A DNA stretch of 43,514 nt from an uncultured Bacteroidales bacterium. GTDB lineage: Bacteria > Bacteroidota > Bacteroidia > Bacteroidales > F082. Positions 28,017 to 41,330 of the stretch are shown one piece after another. The position numbers were made by a program, and so were the translations under genes. The DNA lies in NCBI GenBank assembly GCA_900318085.1, contig ONJF01000019.1, positions 1 to 43,514 on the forward strand, read 5' to 3'. The notes below the pieces were generated by a model that was not told where the DNA came from, ran no database searches, and saw only the letters and a program-made list of their open reading frames with translations. Numbering within the stretch: the stretch's first letter is position 1; the number at the start of each line of letters is the position of its first letter.

Positions 28017-28056
28017 GGCTTCTGGCTTCTGGCCTCTGGCTTTTGGCCTCTGGCAG
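28017..28056. repeat. CTGGCTT heptamer array
   Basis: Degenerate 7-bp units (CTGGCTT, CTGGCCT, TTGGCCT) start immediately after the DUF4954 stop codon. Related arrays flank the small gene at 29127. Confidence 0.7.
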
Positions 28057-28071
28057 CCTCATTCCCAAGGC

Positions 28072-28156
28072 GTCATGGCGGACAAGGATCCGCCATCTCC
28101 TGAAATAGAAGGTTTGTCTTTGTATTCAGGAGATCGCGGATCGAGTCCGCGATGAC
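28072..28156. repeat. Head-to-head pair of REP-like palindromes before nagB
   Basis: Forward 28072-28101 (arms ATGGCGGA/TCCGCCAT) and reverse 28128-28156 (arms ATCGCGGA/TCCGCGAT). The stem base pair changes on both arms together. Confidence 0.8.
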
Positions 28157-28213
28157 GTATTGGGGAAAGCCACTGAACAACTGAACAACTAAACAACTAA
28201 AAACTATACAACC

Positions 28214-29005
28214 ATGAGAGTCATCATCGAAAAAAACTACGACGCCATGTCGCGTTGGGCCGCCAATCACATTGTTGAACGCATCAAGGCTTTCAAGCCG
28301 ACGGCCAAGAAACCTTTTATCCTCGGTCTGCCTACGGGCTCAACCCCTATCGGCACCTATAAGGAACTCGTGCGTCTCTACAAGAAGGGCGAGATCTCTT
28401 TCAAGAACGTGGTCACCTTCAACATGGACGAATACGTCCGCATCCCTGAGGACCACCCCGAGAGCTACCACAGCTTCATGTGGAACAACTTCTTCAAGCA
28501 CATCGACATCAAGAAGGAGAACGTCAACATCCTCAACGGCAACGCCGAAGACCTCGAGGCCGAGTGCGCCCGCTACGAGGAAAAGATCAAAAGCTACGGT
28601 GGCATCGACCTCTTCATGGGCGGCATCGGTCCCGACGGCCACATCGCCTTCAACGAGCCCGGCAGCAGCCTGACCTCGCGCACCCGCGTGAAGACCCTCA
28701 CCAGCGACACCATCATCGCCAACTCACGTTTCTTCGACAATGACATCAACAAAGTGCCGAAGACGGCATTGACCGTGGGTGTGGGTACCGTCATGGACAG
28801 CCGCGAGGTGATGATCCTGGCCAATGGTCACGGCAAGGCCCGCGCCCTGGCCCACGCCATCGAAGGTGGTGTCAGCCAGATGTGGACCGTCAGCGTGCTG
28901 CAGATGCATCCGAAGGGCATCATTGTCTGCGATGACGCCGCCTGCGATGAACTCAAATACGGCACGGTGAAGTACTTTAAGGACATTGAAAAGAATAATA
29001 TTTAA
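28214..29005 (+). CDS. nagB: Glucosamine-6-phosphate deaminase
   Basis: A 263-aa enzyme that converts GlcN-6-P to fructose-6-P and ammonia, linking amino-sugar use to glycolysis and balancing the hexosamine pool. LGLPTGSTP (phosphate binding) near residue 37, FNMDEYV (catalytic Asp/Glu) near 72 and [17 protein letters not shown] near 136 are all intact. Length is typical. It lies between the DUF4954 gene and a repeat-bracketed small ORF. Its presence fits a region handling GlcNAc-derived sugars. Confidence 0.96.
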
Positions 29006-29108
29006 TGGACTCTGGCTATTGGCTACTGGCCTCTGGCAACTTCAACAGGAGGGAAGGTCTTGATTTTCCAATAAAGCTGCCCGGGACCAATAGCCTTTAG
29101 CAACTGGT
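29006..29108. repeat. TGGC-heptamer module, left copy flanking a four-helix-bundle gene
   Basis: GACTCTGGCTATTGGCTACT and following units, then CAACTTCAACA, a short purine-rich part and an inverted partner (CCAATAGCC...). A diverged copy with the same order lies at 29488-29590 on the other side of the small gene. Confidence 0.7.
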
Positions 29109-29126
29109 AAACAAACACTAAAGACT

Positions 29127-29486
29127 ATGAGAAATTTCAAGAACTATGAAATTTGGATTGACTCTATAGAATTATCTGATGTAATTTATGATATTTGTGA
29201 GAGTTTTCCTCAAAAAGAGCTTTATCAACTAGCTAGTCAGATGGAAAGAGCCGTTGTTTCTATTCCTTCAAATATTGCCGAAGGAGCAGGCAGAAGGTCA
29301 GAAGCAGAGTTTGCCCATTTTCTTGATATTGCTTTAGGTTCTGCATACGAACTGGAAACACAACTCATCATAGCAAAAAGAAGAAAATACATTTCGAAAG
29401 AATTGTTTGAAACTACAGACGAAACCATTATGAGCCTACAAAAAAGAATAGGTTCGTTTATAGCTACAGTAATAGGAGAAAAATAA
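29127..29486 (+). CDS. Four-helix-bundle protein (23S rRNA intervening-sequence protein family)
   Basis: A 119-aa protein. The pattern F..YEIW..S..L, then FP..E.Y.L..Q..RA..SIPSNIAEGAGR, then EFAHFLDIALGSAYELETQL is diagnostic of the small four-helix-bundle family first seen as ORFs inside 23S rRNA intervening sequences. Function is unknown; members are often found singly among repeats. The gene is AT-rich compared with its neighbours and is bracketed by two copies of a TGGC-heptamer module (29006-29108 and 29488-29590), which suggests insertion as a cassette. ATG 29127 is supported by the family N-terminus. Confidence 0.88.
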   Translation: MRNFKNYEIWIDSIELSDVIYDICESFPQKELYQLASQMERAVVSIPSNIAEGAGRRSEAEFAHFLDIALGSAYELETQLIIAKRRKYISKELFETTDETIMSLQKRIGSFIATVIGEK

Positions 29487-29487
29487 T

Positions 29488-30571
<1,084 letters not shown>

Positions 30572-30603
30572 TTTGCCCTTTAGGTTCATCCTTCTTCTCG
30601 GCA

Positions 30604-30797
30604 GTCATAGCGGACTCGATCCGCTATCCCCTGCCCAACAAAGTCCCCTTCCCTTTCGGCGGTCATAGAAGACCTTATCCCCTTCCAATAGGTTCATCCT
30701 TCATCCCGGCAGTCATAGCGGACTCGATCCGCTATCCCCATCCTCAGCAGTACCATTCTATCAACAGGCAGTCACTGCGGACCTGATCCGCAGTCCT
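30604..30797. repeat. Four REP-like palindromes between the WlbA-like gene and the GIY-YIG gene
   Basis: Copies at 30604-30630 and 30712-30738 (both ATAGCGGA...TCCGCTAT), a degenerate copy at 30662-30690, and 30771-30797 with arms ACTGCGGA/TCCGCAGT. The last variant is shared with the inverted copies at 31168 and 31375. Confidence 0.75.
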
Positions 30798-30817
30798 CTC
30801 CAAAGCAGAACGCTTTT

Positions 30818-31195
30818 ATGTCAAAGCGCGGATACGTTTACATTCTAACCAACAACCACAATACAACTTTGTATATTGGTGTCACCAATGACCTGATGCG
30901 AAGGGTGGCAGAACACAGGCTTCACCTTAATAAAGGTTTTACTAATAAATACAAAACAGAGAAACTGGTTTATTATGAAGTCATAGAAGGATTCGATATA
31001 GCCATTCAGCGAGAAAAGCAATTGAAGAACTGGCATAGAGCATGGAAAGAAGCGTTGATTAATGACTTTAATCCCGAATGGAAGGACTTGACTGAAGACA
31101 TAGGGGTGGATGAAGCATTTATGCAATCAGTGAAAGAGTTTTATCAGAATAGGGATTCCGAGGAATCAGGAGACTGCGGATCGAGTCCGCAGTGA
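30818..31195 (+). CDS. GIY-YIG nuclease-domain protein
   Basis: A 125-aa protein. The GIY-YIG core is visible: GYVYILTNN near residues 5-13, LYIGVTNDLMRRVAEH near 18-33 with the conserved Arg, and a catalytic-type Glu in the QREKQLKNW helix near 64-72. It belongs to the small UvrC/YhbQ-like single-domain group whose function is poorly known. The last ~11 residues (EESGDCGSSPQ) and the stop codon are encoded by a REP-like palindrome (31168-31199), so the natural C-terminus has been replaced or extended by repeat DNA. The same palindrome variant stands inverted just upstream at 30771. AT-rich compared with the sugar genes. Confidence 0.85.
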   Translation: MSKRGYVYILTNNHNTTLYIGVTNDLMRRVAEHRLHLNKGFTNKYKTEKLVYYEVIEGFDIAIQREKQLKNWHRAWKEALINDFNPEWKDLTEDIGVDEAFMQSVKEFYQNRDSEESGDCGSSPQ

Positions 31196-31421
31196 CTCCA
31201 AAAGAATCAGGATGACATGAAAAGAAAGCGAATGACTTTCTCCCATTTCATAATGCCAGAACCGCCCCAACAATAGGCAGTCATAGCGGACTTGATCTGC
31301 TATCCCCTGCCCAACAGAACAACTTTCCATCTAGGCCATGGGAGGCCAAGGCATCATAATGGATTCCAGAAAATAGGAGACTGCGGATCGAGTCCGCAGT
31401 GACTCCAAAAGAATCAGGATG
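31168..31421. repeat. Two identical 47-bp palindrome-containing repeats plus a third palindrome, before ugd
   Basis: Bases 31168-31214 and 31375-31421 are identical over 47 bp (palindrome arms ACTGCGGA/TCCGCAGT plus downstream ACTCCAAAAGAATCAGGATG). Between them lies a forward copy at 31280-31306 (ATAGCGGA.../TCTGCTAT). This accounts for most of the 274-bp gap. Confidence 0.85.
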
Positions 31422-31469
31422 TCTTTAATAGAAAGCTAGTTTAACAATCAAATAGCAAACCAAGAAACC

Positions 31470-32768
31470 ATGAACATCGCAGTAGCAGGCACCGGCTACG
31501 TCGGCCTCAGCACCGCCACCCTCTTGGCACAACACAACCACGTCACCGCCGTCGACGTCATCCCCGAAAAGGTAGCCCTCATCAACCAGAAGAAGTCACC
31601 CATCCAGGACGAGTACATCGAGAAATACCTGGCCGAGAAAGAATTGGACCTCACCGCCACCCTCGATGGCGCTGCGGCCTATCGCGACGCCGAGTTTGTC
31701 GTCATCGCCGCCCCCACCAACTACGACCCGCAGAAGAACTTCTTCGACACGAGCCACGTGGAAGAGGTCATCGACCTGGTCCTTTCGGTCAACCCCGACG
31801 CGGTGATGGTCATCAAGAGCACCATCCCGGTGGGTTACACCCGTAGTCTCTACGTGAAGTATGCCGCCAAGGGCGTGAAGCAGTTCAACCTCTTGTTCTC
31901 ACCCGAGTTCCTCCGCGAGAGCAAGGCCCTCTACGACAACCTCTATCCCAGCCGTATCATCGTGGGCTACCCCAAGCCTATCGAAGGCTATGATGCGGAA
32001 AACGAGGCCATCCAACGCTTGGCTCGACCCGACCTGGAAGAGAAAGCCAAAGTCTTCGCCAGCCTCCTCGTCGAAGGAGCCATCAAGGAAGATGTCCCCG
32101 TGTTATTCATGGGCATGAAAGAAGCTGAGGCGGTGAAGCTCTTTGCCAACACCTACCTCGCCCTGCGTGTGAGCTACTTCAATGAGTTGGACACCTACGC
32201 CGAGGTCAAGGGTCTCGATACCCAGGCCATCATCGATGGTATCTGCCTTGACCCCCGCATCGGCTCACACTACAACAACCCGTCGTTTGGCTATGGAGGC
32301 TACTGTCTGCCCAAGGACACCAAGCAGCTCCTCGCCAACTACGAGGACGTGCCTGAGGACCTCATCCGCGCCATCGTGGAGAGCAACCGCACCCGTAAGG
32401 ACTTCATCGCCGACCAGGTGCTGAAGAAGGCGGGCTATTACGACTACTACGACCAAGGACAATACAATGCCGCCCAGGAACGCCATTGTGTCATCGGGGT
32501 CTACAGGCTGACGATGAAGTCGAACAGCGACAACTTCCGGCAGAGCAGCATCCAAGGCGTGATGAAACGCATCAAGGCCAAAGGCGCCGAGGTCATCATC
32601 TACGAGCCCACCCTGCCCGACGGCACGACCTTCTTCGGCAGCCTCGTCGTCAACGACTTGGCCGAGTTCAAGACCAGGAGCCAGGCCATCATCGCCAACA
32701 GATACGACAGCGTCCTCGATGATGTCAAGGAGAAGGTATATACGAGAGACATCTTTAGGAGAGACTAA
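31470..32768 (+). CDS. ugd: UDP-glucose 6-dehydrogenase
   Basis: A 432-aa NAD-dependent enzyme oxidising UDP-glucose to UDP-glucuronate. The N-terminal Rossmann start [20 protein letters not shown], the STIPVGYT segment near residue 115, SPEFLRE near 144, and the catalytic Cys in [13 protein letters not shown] near 276 are present. The C-terminal UDP-binding domain begins around residue 330 ([21 protein letters not shown]). Length and motifs match the short Ugd group; use of UDP-GlcNAc is less likely. It supplies uronic acid for the surface polymer. Confidence 0.93.
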
Positions 32769-32792
32769 GGGCACACAGAAGAATAATAATGT

Positions 32793-32870
32793 CACACAGA
32801 TCTCACAGATTACACAGATGGTATTGAGCCGTGGCTCAATACAATCAGTGAGATTAGTGAAATCTGTGTG
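32793..32870. repeat. CACAGAT 9-bp repeat with central hairpin, left of the GxxExxY gene
   Basis: Three 9-bp units (CACACAGAT, CTCACAGAT, TACACAGAT) lead into a perfect 10-bp hairpin GTATTGAGCC-GT-GGCTCAATAC (32821-32842), then inverted units ending ATCTGTGTG. The right-hand counterpart is at 33281-33353. Confidence 0.75.
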
Positions 32871-32904
32871 AGAAAAAAATAGTGCGACAAAATATCAATA
32901 CGAA

Positions 32905-33276
32905 ATGACCGACAACGAATTGACATACGAGATTAGGGGAGCAATCTTTGATGTATATAATACATTAGGCCCAGGTTTGTTGGAATCCGTGTATGAAGAG
33001 GCTTTGTCATTTGAGCTTCAGCAACGCGGCTTGGAGGTAGTTCGGCAGATGGAAGTCCCTATCATGTATAAAGGAAACGAACTTAAAGCCCCTTTACGTC
33101 TGGATATACTCGTTGAAAACCAAGTTATTGTCGAGTTAAAATCGGTTGAAGAGATGAAGCCCGTATTTGCCAAACAACTACTTACTTATCTTAAGCTTCT
33201 TAATAAGCATGTAGGTATTTTGGTAAATTTCAATACTAATGATTTAAGTGGTAGTATTAAACGGATTGTAAATTAA
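32905..33276 (+). CDS. GxxExxY family protein
   Basis: A 123-aa protein with the name-giving motif in LGPGLLESVYEEALSFEL (residues about 22-39), then a basic strand, LRLDILVENQVIVELKSVE (D...ExK, a PD-(D/E)XK-like arrangement) near 70-88, and a YLKLLNKHVGILVNF ending. The family is widespread in Bacteroidota and other phyla with no established function; the nuclease-like core is a family-level inference. AT-rich, and bracketed by two copies of a CACAGAT/TTGAGCC repeat element. Confidence 0.9.
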   Translation: MTDNELTYEIRGAIFDVYNTLGPGLLESVYEEALSFELQQRGLEVVRQMEVPIMYKGNELKAPLRLDILVENQVIVELKSVEEMKPVFAKQLLTYLKLLNKHVGILVNFNTNDLSGSIKRIVN

Positions 33277-33280
33277 CGAT

Positions 33281-33353
33281 CTACAGTGATCTACAGTATC
33301 CATTGAGCCGTAGGCTCAATAAATAATCTGTGGGATCTGTGTAATCTGTGTGA
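33281..33353. repeat. CACAGAT 9-bp repeat with central hairpin, right of the GxxExxY gene
   Basis: Degenerate ATCTACAGT units, hairpin ATTGAGCC-GTA-GGCTCAAT (33302-33320), then 9-bp units ending ATCTGT (33323-33353). The organisation matches 32793-32870. Confidence 0.75.
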
Positions 33354-33394
33354 AACAACAATCCGTTTTATATACAGATAACTCAGTGTGATTT

Positions 33395-34741
33395 ATGTTC
33401 AACAAAACCGACCCCACTTACTTCGACGGCCCATGGACCTTTGAGAAGACCGAACACGCCGTGCTCGGTCTCTGTAAGATTATCGACCGCTATGCCCCCA
33501 AGCTGACACTGGAGGACCTGCAGAACGACCCGCGCTGCGCCCGCATCCCCGACTTGAGTCTGGAGCGCGTCCAGGAGGTCATCGCCGACGTGGAGGCCAA
33601 GCTCTGGCGTGGCGCCAGGTTCTTCGAGAACGAGGTCATCTACCACACCGGCCCGCATCACGACGACATCATGCTCGGCATCATGCCCTTCATCAACCGC
33701 CAGCTGCGGACACCCACCAACCAGGTGCATTTCGCCATCATGACCTCGGGCTACCACTCCGTCACCGACGACTTCCTGCAACAGGCCCTGGAAGACACCC
33801 TGGACTACCTCCATCAAGGTCGCATCCAGATGGTGCTTTACCCCGACTTCTTCGAGCAGGGCTACCGCTTCAAGCAGGAGAAGGACATCCACCATTACCT
33901 CGACAACGTCGCCCGCCGCAACCCCGACGAGATGCGCCGTGGCTTCTGCCACCGCATCCTCCGCGACGCCGTGGGGCTGTGGGGGCTGAAGAGCGTCGCC
34001 GATGTCGAGGCACGCTTCACGGCGGAGATCGAAAACCTCAAGGCAGGCCAACCCAACAGCCATGAGATACAGAAGCTCAAAGGCGAGGTCCGAGAGTTCG
34101 AGGAAGAACTCGTCTGGGCCTATGCCGGCACCGCCTTGGACCATATCCATCATCTGAGGCTGGGGTTGTATGATCAAGGGTCCCTGAGCCCGTCGAAGGG
34201 CCCGGTTCATGACGATGACATCAACACTATCCTCAACCAACTCCGTACCATCAAGCCCACCGTCCTCACCGTCGCCATCGACTCGGAGGGACAGGGTCCC
34301 AACACGCACTACAAGGTGATGCAGAGCATCGCCGAGGCCGTCAGGCTGTGGGGCGAGGAAGAGGACCTCAGCCGGTTGCGGGTCTTCGGCTACCGCAACG
34401 TGTGGTCGACCTTCCATCCTGCCGAGGCCAACGTCTACGTGCCTGTGTCGCTCAACGCTTTCGCCGTGTTCGAGAAGGCTTTCAAGGACAGCTACCTGAC
34501 CCAATACAAGGCGGAGTTTCCCAACCCCGACTTCGACGGTCCCTTCAGCGAGCTGGCGGAGCAGATCTGGGTGAAGAACTACAAGGACGTGCAGTTCATC
34601 CTCGGGAAGGACTTCTTCTACGAGAACAATCACCCGCTCATCCGCGCCACCCATGGACTTATCTTCTTGAAGGAAATGGATGCGAAGGGATTTGTCGCCT
34701 TGGCGGAGGAGATGGCAAAAAGAATAGTAATTGATAATTGA
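33395..34741 (+). CDS. PIG-L-type deacetylase family protein with a repeat-derived insertion
   Basis: A 448-aa protein. The motif GPHHDDIMLG near residues 88-97 is the metal-binding (P/H)-H-x-D-D motif of PIG-L/LmbE deacetylases, followed by a TSGYHSVTDDF segment; similar domains occur fused to NagB-like deaminases in Bacteroides. The likely role is N-deacetylation or hydrolysis of an amino-sugar compound, consistent with nagB nearby, but the substrate is unknown. Residues about 262-270 (GSLSPSKGP) are encoded by a half-copy of the dispersed repeat at 17780. The C-terminus and stop codon fall in an AATTGAT-type repeat (RIVIDN), so the end may not be original. Confidence 0.75.
   Translation: MFNKTDPTYFDGPWTFEKTEHAVLGLCKIIDRYAPKLTLEDLQNDPRCARIPDLSLERVQEVIADVEAKLWRGARFFENEVIYHTGPHHDDIMLGIMPFINRQLRTPTNQVHFAIMTSGYHSVTDDFLQQALEDTLDYLHQGRIQMVLYPDFFEQGYRFKQEKDIHHYLDNVARRNPDEMRRGFCHRILRDAVGLWGLKSVADVEARFTAEIENLKAGQPNSHEIQKLKGEVREFEEELVWAYAGTALDHIHHLRLGLYDQGSLSPSKGPVHDDDINTILNQLRTIKPTVLTVAIDSEGQGPNTHYKVMQSIAEAVRLWGEEEDLSRLRVFGYRNVWSTFHPAEANVYVPVSLNAFAVFEKAFKDSYLTQYKAEFPNPDFDGPFSELAEQIWVKNYKDVQFILGKDFFYENNHPLIRATHGLIFLKEMDAKGFVALAEEMAKRIVIDN
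34178..34203. repeat. Half-copy of the GTCCCTGAGCC repeat inside the PIG-L gene
   Basis: Matches the left arm of the inverted repeat at 17780-17805 with one change (CCTGTCG to CCCGTCG). It lies in frame within the coding sequence, in the loop after LRLGLYDQ. Confidence 0.85.
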
Positions 34742-34760
34742 TAATTTAAAATTGATAATT
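34729..34760. repeat. TTGATAA heptamer array, left of the second four-helix-bundle gene
   Basis: Three TTGATAA-like units overlap the end of the PIG-L gene and abut the ATG at 34761. A mirrored array (AATTGTC units) lies at 35157-35190. Confidence 0.6.
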
Positions 34761-35108
34761 ATGAGTAATGCAATACAAGATAAAACTAGAGCTTTTGCAA
34801 TTAGAATCATCAATTGTTATAAATTCTTAACCGAAGAGAGACATGAATATGTCATGTCAAAGCAAGTGCTCCGCTGTGGTACTAGCATAGGAGCAAACAC
34901 GCGTGAAAGTAAAAATGCTCAATCACGAAATGATTTTCTTAGCAAACTTAGCATAGCATTAAAAGAAGCTGACGAGACCGACTATTGGCTCGACCTTCTT
35001 CACGCTACAGATTATATAGATGATGATATGTATGATTCTTTAGCAACCGATTGTGCTGAGATTATAAAGATACTTACCGCCATCATAAAAACCCTAAAAG
35101 GCGAATAA
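34761..35108 (+). CDS. Four-helix-bundle protein, second member
   Basis: A 115-aa protein. FAIRIINCYKFL near residue 12, VMSKQVLRCGTSIGANTRES near 32-51, and DFLSKLSIALKEADETDYWLDLL near 58-80 match the four-helix-bundle family related to the gene at 29127 but to a distinct subgroup. Function unknown. ATG 34761 (MSNAIQDK) is chosen; the frame is open upstream only through the AT-rich array. Low GC, like the other small ORFs in this region, and bracketed by TTGAYAA heptamer arrays in opposite orientation. Confidence 0.88.
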   Translation: MSNAIQDKTRAFAIRIINCYKFLTEERHEYVMSKQVLRCGTSIGANTRESKNAQSRNDFLSKLSIALKEADETDYWLDLLHATDYIDDDMYDSLATDCAEIIKILTAIIKTLKGE

Positions 35109-35156
35109 TCCTCAATTGGCTTCATCAAAAAACGGAGTCCTGATTTAATCAGCGAT

Positions 35157-35190
35157 CCAATTGTCAATTGTCAATTGTCAATTTTTAATT
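35157..35190. repeat. AATTGTC heptamer array, right of the second four-helix-bundle gene
   Basis: CAATTGT repeated at least three times, then TTTTTAATT, just before pnuC. On the other strand it reads TTGACAA, mirroring 34729-34760. Similar short arrays precede the genes at 40043 and 41734. Confidence 0.7.
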
Positions 35191-35197
35191 CTATATA

Positions 35198-35800
35198 ATG
35201 GAATTCCTCACCACCCACTGGCTCGACATCACCACCACGGCCCTTGGCCTCGCCTACATCCTCCTGGAATACAAGGCCAGCGTCTGGATGTGGGTCGTCG
35301 GCTTCGTCATGCAGAGCCTCGGCATCGTATTGTATTATCAGAAAGGCCTCTATGCCGACTGTGGCATGGAGTTCTACTACCTCGCCATGACGGTCTACGG
35401 CTTCGTCGCCTGGATGCGTCACAAGCAGAAGGCCAAGGACCTCCCCATCCGTCACATGCCGCTGAGGCTGGCCCTCGTCTGGGTCGGTGTCGCCGCCGCG
35501 GTATGGGCGGCCATCTATTTCCTGCTCAGCAGGTTCACCAACAGCAACGTCCCCGTCCTCGACGCCTTCACCACCGCCTTGAGCATCGTGGGCATCTGGG
35601 CCCTGGCGCGCAAGTACCTCGAGCAGTGGTTCGTCTGGATTGTCGTCGACGTGGTCACCTGCGGGCTCTATTTCTACAAGGACATCCCCTTCAAGGCCAG
35701 CCTTTACGGGGTTTATGTCATCATCGCGGTGTTTGGCTACTTCAAGTGGCGGAAGCTGATGGAGGAGGGGAATAAGGAAGTAAATCTAACGCAAATCTAA
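35198..35800 (+). CDS. pnuC: Nicotinamide mononucleotide/riboside transporter PnuC
   Basis: A 200-aa inner-membrane protein with about seven hydrophobic segments. The Trp- and Tyr-rich pattern VWMWVVGFVMQSLGIVLYY near residue 30, YLAMTVYGFVAW near 63 and the final IPFKASLYGVYVIIAVFGYFKWRK are characteristic of PnuC, which imports NAD precursors by facilitated diffusion coupled to phosphorylation. The last seven residues (EVNLTQI) come from the start of the AAATCTAACG repeat module (35776-35836). It does not fit the sugar theme, except that several neighbours use NAD. Confidence 0.92.
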   Translation: MEFLTTHWLDITTTALGLAYILLEYKASVWMWVVGFVMQSLGIVLYYQKGLYADCGMEFYYLAMTVYGFVAWMRHKQKAKDLPIRHMPLRLALVWVGVAAAVWAAIYFLLSRFTNSNVPVLDAFTTALSIVGIWALARKYLEQWFVWIVVDVVTCGLYFYKDIPFKASLYGVYVIIAVFGYFKWRKLMEEGNKEVNLTQI

Positions 35801-35836
35801 ATTAAATTTTTGTGCTTCGCCCTATCGGGCTTGCAT
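35776..35836. repeat. AAATCTAACG...TTCGCCC module, copy 1
   Basis: AAATCTAACGCAAATCTAAA, then an AT stretch, TTTGTGCTTCGCCC, a short loop and GGGCTTGCA. Other copies: 38010-38069, 40806-40893, 41566-41629. Its first bases encode the PnuC C-terminus. The GCCC/GGGC part forms a small hairpin. Confidence 0.75.
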
Positions 35837-35966
35837 AGCAGCAGGCATGTCATCCCTGCGGAGGATTTGTGGGAGAGCATGGGATCTATGCCTGCGTCTG
35901 AAAGGTATTGACGTCAAATTACACACTAATTACGTTGAAAGGAAGGAAAAGGTGGTCCTGTAGCGT

Positions 35967-36075
35967 AGGAGATCGCGGATCAAGTCCGCGATGACGACAA
36001 GGGGTCGACTTTCAACTCTAAACTGACTCTAAACTCTAAACTCTCAACTAATAACTGACTCTCAACCTTAAACCA
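35967..36075. repeat. REP-like palindrome and first CTCAACT heptamer array
   Basis: The palindrome 35967-35995 (ATCGCGGA/TCCGCGAT, reverse) is followed by CTAAACT/CTCAACT heptamers up to 36075, 10 bp before the next gene. No promoter consensus was seen between pnuC and 36085. Confidence 0.7.
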
Positions 36076-36084
36076 TTAATAACG

Positions 36085-37992
36085 ATGAACCTCATTTCCA
36101 AATACTACAACCGCTTCCTCAGCTACAAGGCCGTCTTCTGCCTCGACATGTTCCTGTCGCTGGCGGCTTCAGTCATCGTGTTGCTGGTGATGACTTTCTT
36201 CGCCGGCTCTCACAGCTATTACGCCGGCACCTTCTCCCTATGGTGGCTGGGCAGCAGCGTCGTGGCCACGGTCGTAGCCTTGTTCCTCTTCAAGAGCTAT
36301 AGGCTGGTGATACGCCACACCTCGTTTCCCGACGTCATTCGCTACTTCCTTACCGCCCTGGTCAAGGTGGTGCTGATGGGCGTGGTCGTCGGCACGGCAT
36401 GCCTCTTCAACTTCAGCGTTGTGGTGGCCTTTGGGCTCGACTTCCTCGTCACCCTGCTCTTCTTCGTCGGCGTGCGCGTGTTGATGATGACCGTCTACAA
36501 CTACCACAAACAGCAGATGAACGAGTTGAAACACCGGCAGCGTGTGCTCGTCTACGGCATCACCGACAAGTCGGTGGCCACGGTCACGAGGCTGCACGAA
36601 TCGCCGCATTACCATATCGTGGGCTTCCTGTCGCACGACACCCTCGACAGGCGCCTCAAGCTCTCCGACATCTCCATCTATTATTACGATACGGAAAGCG
36701 AACTGGAAGAGATTGTCAACAACCTGTCGGTGTCGGGCATCCTCTTCGCCACTGAGGACGACGTGAAAAACGAGACCGCCCTGGTGTCGTTCTGCAGCAG
36801 CCACAAGCTCAAGCTGCTCATCACCCCCACCATCAACGAGGTGGAGGAAGGCGTGCTGCTGAAGAAAAGGGTGCGTGAGGTGAAGATCGAAGACCTGTTG
36901 GGCCGTCCCGAGATCCAGATCTCGATGGACGTCATCCGACAGTCATTCGCCGACAAGGTGGTGCTGGTGACGGGTGCGGCAGGCAGCATCGGCAGCGAGT
37001 TGTGCCGTCAGCTGGCCACCTTCGGCATCAAGCAGCTCATCTTGTTTGACAACGCCGAGACACCCATGCACAACCTGCGCCTCGAGCTGGAAGGCCGCTT
37101 CCCCGAGCTGAGTTTCGTCCCCGTGATTGGCGATGTGAGGCATAAGGCACGTCTCGACTTCGCCTTCAGGCACTATCACCCCCAGGTGGTGTTCCATGCG
37201 GCGGCCTACAAGCACGTGCCGCTCATGGAGGAGAACCCCTGCGAGGCCGTGCTCGTCAACGTGTACGGCTCGCGCAACGTGGCCGACAAGTGCATCGAGT
37301 ACGACGTGGAGAAGATGGTGATGATCAGTACCGACAAGGCGGTGAACCCCACCAATGTGATGGGGTGTTCGAAGCGTTTGGCCGAGATTTACGTCCAGAC
37401 GCTGGGTCTCGCCGTTGCGCAAGGCAAGCACGAGGGGAAGACCAAGTTCGTCACCACGCGTTTCGGCAACGTGTTGGGCAGCAACGGCAGCGTCATCCCG
37501 CGTTTCCGCGAGCAGATCGAGAACGGCGGTCCTGTGACGGTGACCCATCCCGACATCACGCGTTTCTTCATGACCATCCCTGAGGCCTGCCGTCTGGTGA
37601 TGGAGGCCGCCATCATGGGCGAGGGCAACCAGATCTTCGTCTTCGACATGGGCGAGAGCGTCAAGATCGACACCTTGGCGCGCCGCATGATCGAGCTGGC
37701 CGGCCTTGAGGTGGGCAAGGACATCGAAATCAAGTACACGGGCCTCCGTCCCGGCGAGAAGCTCTACGAGGAGGTGCTTTCCAACAAGGAGAACACACTC
37801 CCCACCTCGCATGAGCGTATCCGCATCGCCAAGGTGAGGGAATATGAATACAACGAGGTCGCCGCCATCGTCGACGAGTTGGAAGACCTGTCGCGCAAGG
37901 TGGAGATCCCCGACATGGTGAAGCTGATGAAGCGGACCGTGCCGGAGTTCATTAGCAAGAACAGCCGCTTCGAGATTTATGACAAACATTAA
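36085..37992 (+). CDS. Membrane-bound nucleotide-sugar 4,6-dehydratase (WbpM/PglF/CapD family)
   Basis: A 635-aa protein. Four or five TM helices occupy residues about 15-135, then a first Rossmann-like region, then the catalytic SDR domain from about 280 with TGAAGSIGSELCRQ near 295, HAAAYKHVPLMEENP near 372, and STDKAVNPTNVMGCSK near 414-429. As in WbpM and PglF, Met replaces the usual Tyr of YxxxK (MGCSK). Family members convert UDP-GlcNAc to its 4-keto-6-deoxy form for bacillosamine- or QuiNAc-type sugars. It acts at the inner membrane. ATG 36085 opens the hydrophobic segment. Confidence 0.92.
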   Translation: MNLISKYYNRFLSYKAVFCLDMFLSLAASVIVLLVMTFFAGSHSYYAGTFSLWWLGSSVVATVVALFLFKSYRLVIRHTSFPDVIRYFLTALVKVVLMGVVVGTACLFNFSVVVAFGLDFLVTLLFFVGVRVLMMTVYNYHKQQMNELKHRQRVLVYGITDKSVATVTRLHESPHYHIVGFLSHDTLDRRLKLSDISIYYYDTESELEEIVNNLSVSGILFATEDDVKNETALVSFCSSHKLKLLITPTINEVEEGVLLKKRVREVKIEDLLGRPEIQISMDVIRQSFADKVVLVTGAAGSIGSELCRQLATFGIKQLILFDNAETPMHNLRLELEGRFPELSFVPVIGDVRHKARLDFAFRHYHPQVVFHAAAYKHVPLMEENPCEAVLVNVYGSRNVADKCIEYDVEKMVMISTDKAVNPTNVMGCSKRLAEIYVQTLGLAVAQGKHEGKTKFVTTRFGNVLGSNGSVIPRFREQIENGGPVTVTHPDITRFFMTIPEACRLVMEAAIMGEGNQIFVFDMGESVKIDTLARRMIELAGLEVGKDIEIKYTGLRPGEKLYEEVLSNKENTLPTSHERIRIAKVREYEYNEVAAIVDELEDLSRKVEIPDMVKLMKRTVPEFISKNSRFEIYDKH

Positions 37993-38009
37993 TATAAGGT
38001 AGAGAAGGG

Positions 38010-38254
38010 AAGCAAATCTAACGTAAATCTAAAATAAATCTTTGTGCTTCGCCCTTATCGGGCTTGCACACCCGACACCCAGTCACCCAGTCACACAGAT
38101 ACCACAGATAGCACAGATTATAGCGCGCCTTCGCCGCGCTGCCTACCGGCTGCATTACTCTCAACTTTCCACTGACTCTAAACTCTAAACTCTAAACTTA
38201 CTACTGACTCTCAACTCTAAACACTAAACACTAAACACTCAACCCTCAGCTCTT
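38010..38254. repeat. Composite repeat block before the ATPase gene
   Basis: In order: an AAATCTAACG...CGGGCTTGCA module (38010-38069), CACAGAT 9-bp units (38091-38119), TAGCGCGCCTTCGCCGCGCT...GCTGCAT (38120-38156), and CTCAACT/CTAAACT heptamers (38157-38254). The same order recurs at 39718-40012 and 40806-41330. This is most of the gap 37993-38364; the rest holds a promoter at 38307. Confidence 0.8.
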
Positions 38255-38306
38255 CCAATTATACGGTAATAAACATGGAAGAAAGTATTGTTTTTCAAAA
38301 AGTTTG

Positions 38307-38315
38307 TATCTTTGC
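38307..38315 (+). promoter_or_regulatory. -7 box (TATCTTTGC) for the ATPase gene
   Basis: A perfect TATCTTTGC 49 bp before ATG 38365, with TTG at 38288-38290. Unlike the sugar genes around it, this gene has a clear private promoter. Confidence 0.7.
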
Positions 38316-38364
38316 GATATGAAAAATAACCACCGCGAAAATAACCGCCGCGAAAATTAAGAGT

Positions 38365-39705
38365 ATGAAATTTTACGACAGACAAAAGGAACTTGCTGAA
38401 TTGGAAAGGATTAGGACTGTGGCTTTTTCCGTCAGTTCGCAGATGACTGTGGTGACGGGCCGACGCAGGATCGGCAAGACCAAGCTGATCATGAAGAGTT
38501 GCGAGGCTTCTCCAACGTTGTATCTGTTTGTCAGCCGCAACAACGAGGCAACGCTTTGCAGCCAATTTTCGGAGGAGGCCAGGCGGTCGTTGGGCATTTT
38601 TGTTCCAGAAGGTATCACTTCATTTCGGGATCTGTTCCGACTTTGCATGGAATACGGAAAAAACATGCCTTTCAATCTGATACTCGATGAGTTTCAGGAG
38701 TTTTACAATATCAACCCAGCCATATTCAGCGAGATACAGAACATTTGGGACCAGACCAAAGACAACACCCATGTCAACTTGCTGGTTTGCGGATCTGTTT
38801 TTACTTTGATGCACCGTATTTCCCAGGATGCTAAAGAGCCTTTATACGGGAGAGCATCGGGCTTCATCAAGCTCAAGCCATTTATGCCAAGCGTGCTGAA
38901 GCAGATACTCAAAGACCATAATCCCAACTATTCAAACGACGATCTTTTGGCGCTCTATGCTACCACAGGGGGCGTGCCCAAATATGTGGAGTTGTTGATG
39001 GACAACGGTTGCGTAAAAGTGCAGAGCATATTGGAAAGAATGTGTGGCGAGAATTCCCTCTTCCTAGAGGAAGGGAACACGGTGCTCATTCAGGAGATGG
39101 GCAAGCAATATGGCACCTATTATTCGGTGTTGTCAGCCATTGCGAGTGGTGCAACCGAGAGTTCACGAATTTCACAACTCACTGGAGTTGCAAGTTTGGG
39201 AGGAATCATGCAGCGCTTGGAAGAGGATTACGACTTGGTTGGCAAAAAACGACCGGTGCTGTCTAAGCCTGGAAGCCAAACGGTTAGATATGAAATAAAA
39301 GATCATTTCTTGAGGTTTTGGTTCCGCTATATCGTGAAGTACCAGAATCTCATACAAACGGGGCAATGGGAAAGACTGAAGGATATTGTCGTTCAAGACT
39401 ATCCCACCTATTCGGGTAAGGAGTTGGAAGACTATTTCAAGGATAAGTTATGTGAAGAGTTGCCCATTGGACAAATCGGATCGTGGTGGGAGAACAACCG
39501 AAGCAAGACGAACGACAGCGGCCAACACGAAGTAGACATCGTGGCGATATATCATGACCGCCCCAAAGTCCTCATTGCCGAGGTGAAGCGCGACAAGCGT
39601 AATTTCAAGCGACAGCCTTTTATGGACAAAGTAGAACTGTTACGTGACAAATACTTTGACAAATATGAGGTTGAGCCCCGCTGCTTTAGCTTGACGGACA
39701 TGTGA
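38365..39705 (+). CDS. AAA-type ATPase with DUF234-like nuclease-fold C-terminus
   Basis: A 446-aa protein of the prokaryotic ATPase group often annotated as ATPase/DUF234. Walker A is GRRRIGKTK near residues 32-40, Walker B is NLILDEFQEF near 111-120, and a sensor-like LLVCGSV follows near 146. A winged-helix region lies near 250-300. The C-terminal ~90 residues contain EVDIVAIY followed by IAEVKRDKR, a PD-(D/E)XK-like D...ExK arrangement. Function is unknown; such proteins are common, multicopy and probably mobile in Bacteroidota. It is unrelated to sugar metabolism, has its own promoter and is bracketed by the same composite repeat block on both sides, so it is probably an insertion. Confidence 0.85.
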   Translation: MKFYDRQKELAELERIRTVAFSVSSQMTVVTGRRRIGKTKLIMKSCEASPTLYLFVSRNNEATLCSQFSEEARRSLGIFVPEGITSFRDLFRLCMEYGKNMPFNLILDEFQEFYNINPAIFSEIQNIWDQTKDNTHVNLLVCGSVFTLMHRISQDAKEPLYGRASGFIKLKPFMPSVLKQILKDHNPNYSNDDLLALYATTGGVPKYVELLMDNGCVKVQSILERMCGENSLFLEEGNTVLIQEMGKQYGTYYSVLSAIASGATESSRISQLTGVASLGGIMQRLEEDYDLVGKKRPVLSKPGSQTVRYEIKDHFLRFWFRYIVKYQNLIQTGQWERLKDIVVQDYPTYSGKELEDYFKDKLCEELPIGQIGSWWENNRSKTNDSGQHEVDIVAIYHDRPKVLIAEVKRDKRNFKRQPFMDKVELLRDKYFDKYEVEPRCFSLTDM

Positions 39706-39717
39706 AACCCAGAGCAT

Positions 39718-40012
39718 CCTGACTCTCAACAATAAACTATCCACCGACTCTCAACTCTCAACACTAAACTCTCAACTCCCTCTGTCACACAGATACCACA
39801 GATAGCACAGATAATAGCGCGCCTTCGCCGCGCTGCCTGCCGGCTGCATGACTCTCAACTCTCAACTAATAACTGACTCTCAACTCTAAACTCTAAACTC
39901 TAAACTTTCAACTCTCAACTAAATACTGACTCTCAACTCTCAACTCTCAACTCTAAACTTTCAACTCTCAACTAAATACTGACTCTCAACTCTAAACTCT
40001 AAACTATCAATT
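39718..40012. repeat. Composite repeat block after the ATPase gene
   Basis: CTCAACT heptamers (39718-39779), CACAGAT units (39784-39812), the TAGCGCGCCTTCGCCGCGC segment (39813-39849), then a long CTCAACT/CTAAACT heptamer array (39849-40012) broken by AAATACTGA spacers. Short AATTGTC units lead to the next gene. No gene is seen in 39706-40042. Confidence 0.85.
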
Positions 40013-40805: not shown

Positions 40806-41330
40806 AAGAAGCAAATCTAATGTAAAGTTTTAAGAAGCAAATCTTACGTAAATCTATAATAAATCTTTGTGCTTCGCCCTGATCGGGCTTGCACTCTCAA
40901 CTCTCAACTCTAAACTCTCAACTGACTCTCAACTCTAAACTCTAAACTCTCAACTCCTTAGTCACACAGATACCACAGATATCACAGATAATAGCGCGCC
41001 TTCGCTGCGCTGCCTAGCGGCTGCATTACTCTCAACTTTCAACTTTCAACTGACTCTAAACTCTCAACTCTAAACTATCAACAACCTAGTCACACAGATA
41101 CCACAGATAGCACAGATAATAGCGCGCCTTCGCCGCGCTTCCTACCGGCTGCAATACTCTCAACTCTCAACTCTTAACTCTAAACTTCCAACTGACTCTT
41201 AACTCTCAACTTTAAACTCTCAACTAATAACTGACTCTCAACTATAAACTCTAAACTCTAAACTTTAAACTCACCCCCAACTCTCAACAAATTTTCAATT
41301 ATAAACTCTCAAATCTCAATTTTCAAATCG
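40806..41330. repeat. Long composite repeat block before capE
   Basis: Two overlapping AAATCT(A)ACG modules (40806-40893), CTCAACT heptamers (40893-40958), CACAGAT units and the GCGCGCCTTCGC segment (40961-41028), heptamers (41028-41088), CACAGAT and GCGCGCC again (41091-41157), then heptamers to 41330. It is the largest noncoding repeat stretch of the window. No gene is seen in 40799-41733. Confidence 0.85.

Follow-up and report, generated by a model that had tools for sequence, protein, structure and literature searches.

Introduction

Several described systems place a small gene between repeats, and the units considered here resemble each of them in part. These units are four small open reading frames (ORFs) with their flanking repeats, encoding two four-helix proteins of the IVP family, a GIY-YIG protein and a GxxExxY protein, on contig ONJF01000019.1 of an uncultured Bacteroidales bacterium (assembly GCA_900318085.1). 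The window is the whole stretch of DNA that was analysed, i.e., this complete contig of 43,514 nt (G000:C75), which belongs to a 3.24-Mb draft genome. Each of the four is probably a small repeat-bounded mobile unit composed of an arm, one ORF and an inverted arm, in which the design of the arm is specific to the ORF family.

In REPtrons and TIRtrons an IS200/IS605-like Y1 gene is combined with palindromes. The window units share with them a single small gene between inverted, dispersed intergenic repeats and the existence of copies without an ORF. However, no Y1 or HUH domain was found in the unit ORFs when ten window ORFs were scanned against Pfam, IVP is not a nuclease, and arms of the window type are tandem arrays of 7 or 9 nt in two of the three families. 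Pairs of an insertion sequence and a miniature inverted-repeat transposable element (MITE) are similar in leaving empty sites in relatives and in inserting into genes, as one unit did here (locus L281), but neither a DDE nor an HUH transposase is encoded by the ten scanned ORFs. The loss of an ORF with retention of the ends is termed MITE-like decay.

The intervening sequences (IVSs) of 23S rRNA genes carry the S23/IVP protein, which is also encoded by two of the four window units, and have the same inverted-repeat, ORF, inverted-repeat anatomy; the IVS of Coxiella has a 28-bp stem (PMC4990558). The window IVP units, in contrast, lie between protein genes and not in rRNA, have arms of tandem heptamers and have dispersed ORF-less copies. 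Free-standing GIY-YIG homing elements are likewise small nuclease ORFs in optional intergenic positions, and two of the four window units encode a GIY-YIG or PD-(D/E)XK nuclease domain, whose role as a nuclease is predicted; the GIY-YIG unit differs in that the palindromes at its ends are found in dozens of copies at other places. Both IVP and GIY-YIG are reported in rRNA insertions of the candidate phyla radiation (PMC11270868). The Avd protein of diversity-generating retroelements has a related four-helix fold (PMC10053308) and works with a reverse transcriptase, but the match to DivGenRetAVD was 23.6 bits, below the 80-bit cut-off, and no reverse transcriptase (RVT) was found among the ten window ORFs.

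The arms of the IVP units also resemble the heptanucleotide arrays of other bacteria. The term short tandemly repeated repetitive (STRR) sequence has its history in cyanobacteria, where GGGGAYT arrays are found in Nostoc. Such heptanucleotide repeats, or long simple sequence repeats (LSSRs), have been described in cyanobacteria, Xanthomonas (GGGAATC) and Beggiatoaceae (TAACTGA), with slippage, regulation, or horizontal transfer without an evident mechanism invoked to account for them (PMC4692102, PMC4679880). In Xanthomonas campestris 70 inverted heptamer pairs were counted (PMC4692102), and the IVP relative XCC0516 of this species (PDB 2gsc) is pentameric (PMC4990558). According to PMC4692102, heptamer arrays are generally not linked to mobile elements, and the terms 'S23' and 'four helix' are absent from the main text of PMC4692102 and PMC4679880. 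Literature searches confined to open-licence PMC papers gave none whose title or abstract connects these ORFs with repeats. The IVP arms, with their lag-7 peak, share with the STRR/LSSR arrays the 7-nt tandem intergenic repeats, and the difference is that here IVP ORFs lie inside such arrays.

Results

A first-pass annotation of the window, made from the letters alone, had proposed that five ORFs are each bracketed by matching repeats. The repeats were recomputed and then read in the sequence itself, and the bracketing held for both IVP genes, the GIY-YIG gene and the GxxExxY gene; an ATPase gene fell out. The layout could also be refined: the copies are inverted in all four units, with direct matches appearing as well if both sides form a hairpin or palindrome of their own. 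The evidence for stems is the complementarity of the arms, by sequence. The inverted-repeat (IR) score used below is the best inverted match between the 220 nt upstream and the 220 nt downstream of an ORF, with a threshold of at least 12; direct matches are given as DR.

The first IVP gene (29127..29486, plus strand) encodes a four-helix protein of 119 aa (PF05635, 'IVP' or 23S_rRNA_IVP, Pfam E 1e-35; TIGR02436), whose best PDB match is 2gsc, XCC0516 (E 3.3e-22). Its left arm (29006..29108, plus strand) starts with five heptamers at 29006-29040, TGGACTC and four TGGC units, and contains a weaker inverted partner at about 29086-29108; the right arm (29488..29590, plus strand) consists of TGGC-type heptamers followed by inverted GCCA heptamers at 29561-29590. 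The outer ends 29006-29030 and 29561-29585 are 84% complementary (IR 15; locus L003). The TGGC-heptamer copies recognised in the first pass at 29006-29108 and 29488-29590 are real, and as hairpin-sized direct copies they outscore the inverted match (DR 30). In the second IVP unit (L004), left-arm AATTGAT heptamers (34724..34760) and inverted right-arm AATTGTC heptamers (35159..35194) enclose a four-helix protein gene of 115 aa (34761..35108, plus strand; PF05635, E 5.5e-27) with IR 18, so that the matching heptamer arrays proposed there were recovered in inverted orientation. One IVP unit stands between nagB and GFO; a PIG-L-like gene and an NMN transporter gene flank the other.

The GIY-YIG gene (30818..31195, plus strand; 125 aa; PF01541, E 2.9e-18) lies between a palindrome with core AGTCACTGCGGACCTGATCCGCAGTC (30767..30797) and a second one (31168..31197) that overlaps the 3' end of the ORF. 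As predicted, the two are in opposite orientation, 30770-30795 and 31172-31197 being 92% complementary (IR 21, DR 36; L115). They are part of a cluster of six palindromes at 30600, 30708, 30767, 31168, 31276 and 31375, the last a further copy spanning 31375-31404. A palindrome CCCTGAGCCCGTCGAAGGG, a variant of this GIY-YIG-associated repeat, was seen inside the PIG-L-like coding sequence at 34179-34210. The GxxExxY gene (32905..33276, plus strand; 123 aa) belongs to PF13366 (PDDEXK_3, E 2e-42) and TIGR04256 (NCBIfam, E 5.9e-44). The CACAGAT/TTGAGCC elements noted around it do match: the left arm (32792..32871) is composed of 9-nt CACAGAT units and self-folded around TTGAGCC/GGCTCAA, and its end 32792-32819 is 86% complementary to the end 33326-33353 of the right arm (33281..33353).

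Inverted arms were far more frequent around these families than around other genes. In 20 congener stretches an IR score of at least 12 was reached by 16 of 17 family ORFs and by 9 of 265 ordinary ORFs (Fisher p = 7e-19), and by none of the 56 ordinary ORFs of 100-200 aa; four of the nine ordinary positives are nagB, which is located between two TGGC arrays. The genus sample comprised 60 genomes including the source genome, the relatives being uncultured Bacteroidia/Bacteroidales assemblies such as RUG14460 (L186), and gave 33 IVP, 30 GxxExxY and 22 small GIY-YIG loci for scoring. The last number was reduced from 30 by two truncated loci and six ORFs longer than 250 aa, which from their length are inferred to be UvrC-like, and a partial IVP-like match (L005) was left out of scoring. 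The threshold was reached at 33/33 IVP, 29/30 GxxExxY (with L089 scoring 20 on the correct strand) and 18/22 GIY-YIG loci. Mismatched upstream and downstream flanks reached it in 14.7% of 1056 IVP pairs and 21.5% of 870 GxxExxY pairs, a background that is overstated as orthologous pairs are included. With one locus per genomic position, the counts were 13/13, 8/9 and 8/9 for IVP, GxxExxY and GIY-YIG. Two contrary patterns had been named in the first pass; these counts do not show conserved ORFs without repeats, and the same pairs around ordinary genes were largely absent.

The first-pass remark that the repeat family differs each time became a rule, namely that the style of the repeat is set by the ORF family. 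IVP arms are tandem arrays with a period of mostly 7 nt (TGGCYNN, AGCTNTA, TGACCC, TAGTCTT, AATTGAN and others), in some cases 6 or 8 nt; GxxExxY arms have a 9-nt period (CACAGATNN, CACGAATNN, CGCAGAANN); small GIY-YIG arms are aperiodic palindromes of about 26 nt. The self-match of genus IVP flanks peaked at lags 7, 14 and 21 (0.40, 0.34 and 0.32, against 0.27 when shuffled) and that of GxxExxY flanks at lags 9 and 18 (0.35 and 0.30). Per locus, the best lag was 7 in 26 of 33 IVP loci and 9 in 23 of 30 GxxExxY loci, with none for GIY-YIG. The palindrome CCCTGAGCCTGTCGAAGGG, which brackets one GIY-YIG subfamily, had 15-62 copies in all seven genomes with that ORF and a median of 0 copies in the other 53, and its reversed control had 0 in 60 genomes. 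The TGGC array pattern gave 15-136 overlapping matches in the five genomes with the first IVP gene (broken in one of them) and a median of 7 elsewhere, uncorrected for kinship. At one GIY-YIG locus (L126) the ORF ends in GPSTSSGT, which resembles read-through into its own right-hand repeat, with repeat DNA becoming coding.

This dependence of style on family bears on two other explanations. In the first, arms form in place by polymerase slippage, a simple-sequence expansion around unstable foreign ORFs. Heptamers are indeed abundant long simple repeats in many bacteria, for which slippage has been proposed (PMC4679880, PMC4692102), but slippage yields direct arrays rather than matching inverted ones on both sides, ordinary ORFs mostly lack arrays, and 9-nt or 7-nt units according to ORF family would be unexplained, so we consider it highly improbable. 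In the second, Y1 (RAYT/IS200-type) transposases made and spread all of the repeats and the small ORFs are passengers between two copies. Elements composed of repetitive extragenic palindromic (REP) sequences and REP-associated tyrosine transposases (RAYTs) are established (PMC3733652), and Y1_Tnp is present in 43 of the 60 genus genomes. The absence of a transposase, as claimed in the first pass, applies to the ten window ORFs scanned, but the source genome has 8 Y1_Tnp matches elsewhere. Around 30 Y1_Tnp loci (L331-L360) the IR score was at least 12 in 25 (cross pairs 16.3%), but the palindromes were other ones (CCCCGTAGGGG, CATCCCGTAGGGATG, CGCCCCGAAGGGGC), the flanks had no 7-nt or 9-nt period, none had repeats of the TGGC, CACAGAT or CCCTGAGCC types, and a loose GCGG..CCGC pattern was found in 2 of 30. 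Passenger capture would also leave unexplained why the repeat period tracks the ORF family. RAYTs were rejected as makers of these arms on account of the different palindromes around the genus Y1_Tnp genes, and the wider passenger explanation is unlikely; the Y1 case, in which the RAYT/REP arrangement was found again, serves as a positive control and as a parallel, not as an explanation.

The gene run nagB-GFO-UGD-PIGL-NMN is recognisable in most of the 20 congener stretches, and the bracketed ORFs vary within it. Fifteen alleles of the nagB-GFO gap, the window included, were compared by eye. Five have an ORF with arms (the ORF being broken in L041), five are gaps of 2-9 nt without any repeat, and five have repeats only, three of them TGGC-type (L038, L043, L051) and two of another type (L042, L048). 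The ORF-less array of TGGC units at 28017..28056 (plus strand) in the window is a candidate ORF-less derivative as well. At five junctions on cyanobacterial plasmids, also read by eye, 12 of 13 ORF-less alleles have no copy of the arm, L362 having a short unrelated spacer, and the remaining one (L365) has arms without an ORF, which in comparison with L280 is a loss of the ORF with retention of the arms.

These alleles speak to the route of acquisition. The first pass had suggested that an intergenic repeat already in place is duplicated when an ORF is inserted into it, and had proposed to look for empty sites with a single repeat copy in relatives. Repeat-only alleles do exist at the same junctions (L038, L042, L043, L048, L051 and L365), but half of the ten ORF-less nagB-GFO alleles are repeat-free and half have repeats only, 12 of the 13 ORF-less plasmid alleles lack the arm, a whole unit interrupts a gene (see below), and ORF family and repeat style match. 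L043 retains sequence that is located inside the left arm in L045 and L040, as an ORF deletion predicts, and the difference between L043 and L045 is more simply read as an ORF deletion that kept both arms. Entry into a resident repeat is very unlikely, and that step of the earlier proposal is unsupported; what stands is that small ORFs and their repeats are brought in together by a single layout of which little has been described, and that relatives differ in having them.

Closely related plasmids provided filled and empty pairs. Plasmids pNsp_a and pNsp_c of Nostoc sp. ATCC 53789 have genes X-Y-Z in common at 91-98% identity; in one, an IVP unit with GAGTCAG-type arms occupies the X-Y gap; in the other, the Y-Z gap is occupied by an IVP unit of a different kind, whose arms are of the GGGAAAA type; and each plasmid has an empty gap where the other is filled. 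Further pairs are Aulosira and Microchaete (Fremyella) (91%), Nostoc C052 and C057 (95%), and Picosynechococcus PCC 7003 and 7002 at cas10-cmr3 (93%). At the Y-Z junction the sequence of the empty alleles L367, L368 and L369 is GAGGTAATGGGATTT; in the filled allele the unit is preceded by GAGGTAATG and followed by TATGGGATTT. The gene that precedes the unit in plasmid2 of Aulosira (L281) has 77 aa and ends in QKQS, while its counterparts have 89 aa (L361, ...ELDDF) and 87 aa (L366, ...EVDDF); the lost tail QTELDDF lies in frame directly past the right arm of the L281 unit. Since the tail is found beyond the arm, the unit was inserted into the 3' end of the gene, and we infer that the direction at the other junctions was also gain. 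The joint absence of ORF and arms and the splitting of a gene by a unit indicate, therefore, that an ORF and its arms are gained and lost as one unit.

Most units read in the same direction as their neighbours. Between genes of the same direction, co-directional units numbered 37/41 for IVP (p 1e-7), 26/28 for GxxExxY (p 3e-6) and 11/12 for GIY-YIG (p 0.006) in binomial tests with orthologues retained, a bias that fits expression by read-through. An IVP unit in L056 is opposite in orientation between the same neighbours as in L057-L062, as if it had flipped through its inverted arms or been inserted twice; L144 is opposite to L130 and L136 by automatic comparison alone.

Co-direction, and the position of the arms just outside the ORF, would also suit arms that are operators, RNA-processing or stability elements of single-gene loci of an autoregulatory or toxin-antitoxin-like kind, with the genes moving by homologous exchange of neighbourhoods; a stem-ORF-stem form of this kind is also seen in the 23S rRNA IVSs, which RNase III cleaves (PMC4990558). 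Against this stand the 15-136 matches of the TGGC array pattern (overlaps counted) in genomes with the first IVP gene, and plasmid alleles that lack arms and ORF together. Because the L281 unit split a gene, this regulatory explanation is weakened and that of a mobile unit strengthened; we regard the former as quite unlikely.

Arms of this kind around IVP genes were found beyond the genus. Phylum-wide, 19 of 29 IVP loci scored at least 12 (cross pairs 3.2% of 812); three of them (L162, L171, L173) were dropped from later counts, leaving 26. Among 56 named IVP loci outside the genus, including Flavobacterium, Polaribacter, Alistipes, Prevotella, Saprospiraceae and Ignavibacteriales, 37 scored at least 12 (against 15.5% of cross pairs), and the peak at lag 7 was present again. 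From plasmids, 15 of 18 IVP and 4 of 8 GxxExxY records were retrieved, and 11 of the 15 IVP loci reached 12, one pair being copies of a shared segment. Their arms are inverted arrays of about 7 nt, e.g., (AGTAGGG)n and (AGGTGAC)n, on cyanobacterial and Gemmatimonadota plasmids of Pseudanabaena, Stanieria, Nostoc, Anabaena, Geminocystis, Calothrix, Picosynechococcus and Gemmatirosa. IVP units were seen between cas6 and cas4 in plasmids of Pseudanabaena and Anabaena sp. 90 (L266, L270), and between cas10 and cmr3 in a plasmid of Picosynechococcus PCC 7003 (L282), where the PCC 7002 allele is empty.

The fifth proposed cassette, the ATPase_2/DUF234 gene (38365..39705, plus strand), was rejected as one of this kind, its repeats being direct and non-specific. 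Two blocks of 116 nt (38083-38198 and 39777-39892) are 86% identical in direct orientation. Further copies of the CACAGAT/GCGCGCC block are found near 40960 and 41080, and these two do not enclose an ORF. All four direct-repeat blocks are composites in which 9-nt CACAGAT units occur together with ACTCTCA heptamers and a GCGCGCC palindrome, which gives the impression of several classes of repeat nested in one another. In L038 (8333-9461) a 375-aa ORF, ATPase-like by eye only, lies between inverted AATTGAT heptamers (IR 13). Other candidate interpretations were also set aside. The first IVP protein had no match in 50,697 phage records, and a phage origin was rejected for it; in IMG/VR, 12 loci were matched by IVP alignment A1. 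A role in defence was rejected as well: PADLOC had no match for the IVPs and the GIY-YIG protein, a weak Cas4 match for GxxExxY and a PDC-S27 candidate match for the ATPase.

Discussion

The reading of the cassettes as mobile units draws on inverted arms that are specific to the ORF family, ORF and arms present or absent as a block, one unit that splits a gene, states without an ORF, and a co-directional bias. Several observations weigh against it. The direct match exceeded the inverted one in 6 of 33 IVP, 14 of 30 GxxExxY and 11 of 22 GIY-YIG genus loci, and in 3 of 26 phylum IVP loci. Scores below 12 were obtained for 10 of 29 phylum and 19 of 56 named IVP loci, and none of three GxxExxY loci outside Bacteroidota (L275, L276, L278) reached 12. 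The first of these, on a Sphingomonas parapaucimobilis plasmid, has its GxxExxY gene between fabD and fabG, and clear inverted arms were not found there. At least 15 copies of the CCCTGAGCCTGTCGAAGGG palindrome occur in 13 of the 53 genomes without the cognate GIY-YIG ORF (kinship uncorrected), and the similarity of protein and arm within the genus is weakly correlated (Mantel r 0.21 over 15 position clusters, a value reached in 89 of 2000 permutations). No constant target-site duplication was apparent at the junctions, an ATG being doubled at one of them, where the start codon must survive anyway, and TTCTA possibly at another. The co-direction counts (37:4, 26:2, 11:1) include orthologues, and IVP does not have the fold of a nuclease. 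Movement in progress was not observed, as ORF pairs above about 85% nucleotide identity share their position, and turnover is therefore slow. A recent duplication of a unit alone was considered for Calothrix brevissima NIES-22 and rejected, the copies lying in a larger shared segment.

A mechanism can be proposed for such mobile units. The insertion of a unit would take place in gaps between co-transcribed genes or close to them, mostly in the reading direction of the neighbours, and the unit could lose its ORF by decay and leave only arms, similar to the arrays and palindromes that are dispersed in intergenic regions and have no ORF; ORF-less hairpins would then be decay or non-autonomous products of units of low activity. 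The protein may recognise its own repeat unit, with an IVP oligomer on tandem heptamers and the putative nucleases on hairpins or targets, and such recognition may be how the unit spreads or persists. IVP lacks a nuclease fold and Avd partners a reverse transcriptase; the chemistry that IVP itself lacks might therefore come from a host enzyme or from a step through RNA/cDNA. As a more tentative possibility, at least three unrelated families, IVP, PD-(D/E)XK GxxExxY and small GIY-YIG, may be independent master genes of hairpin-ended elements without a recognised transposase, each with its own repeat grammar (7-nt, 9-nt and palindrome); a large share of the heptanucleotide and palindromic repeats between genes in Bacteroidota and cyanobacteria may then be their ORF-less progeny.

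Methods based on gene neighbourhoods should be used with caution, as IVP units inserted among cas genes may explain an apparent CRISPR association; IVP is named in the legend of a CRISPR-association figure (PMC10910872). Candidate roles are offered here for three widespread families of unknown function. The heptanucleotide arrays of cyanobacteria, Xanthomonas and Bacteroidetes have long been catalogued, and IVP units are a candidate source of them. In three phyla, members of the IVP family were found flanked by matching, inverted arrays that resemble heptamer repeats, and the possible origin that this suggests may be tested at the bench.

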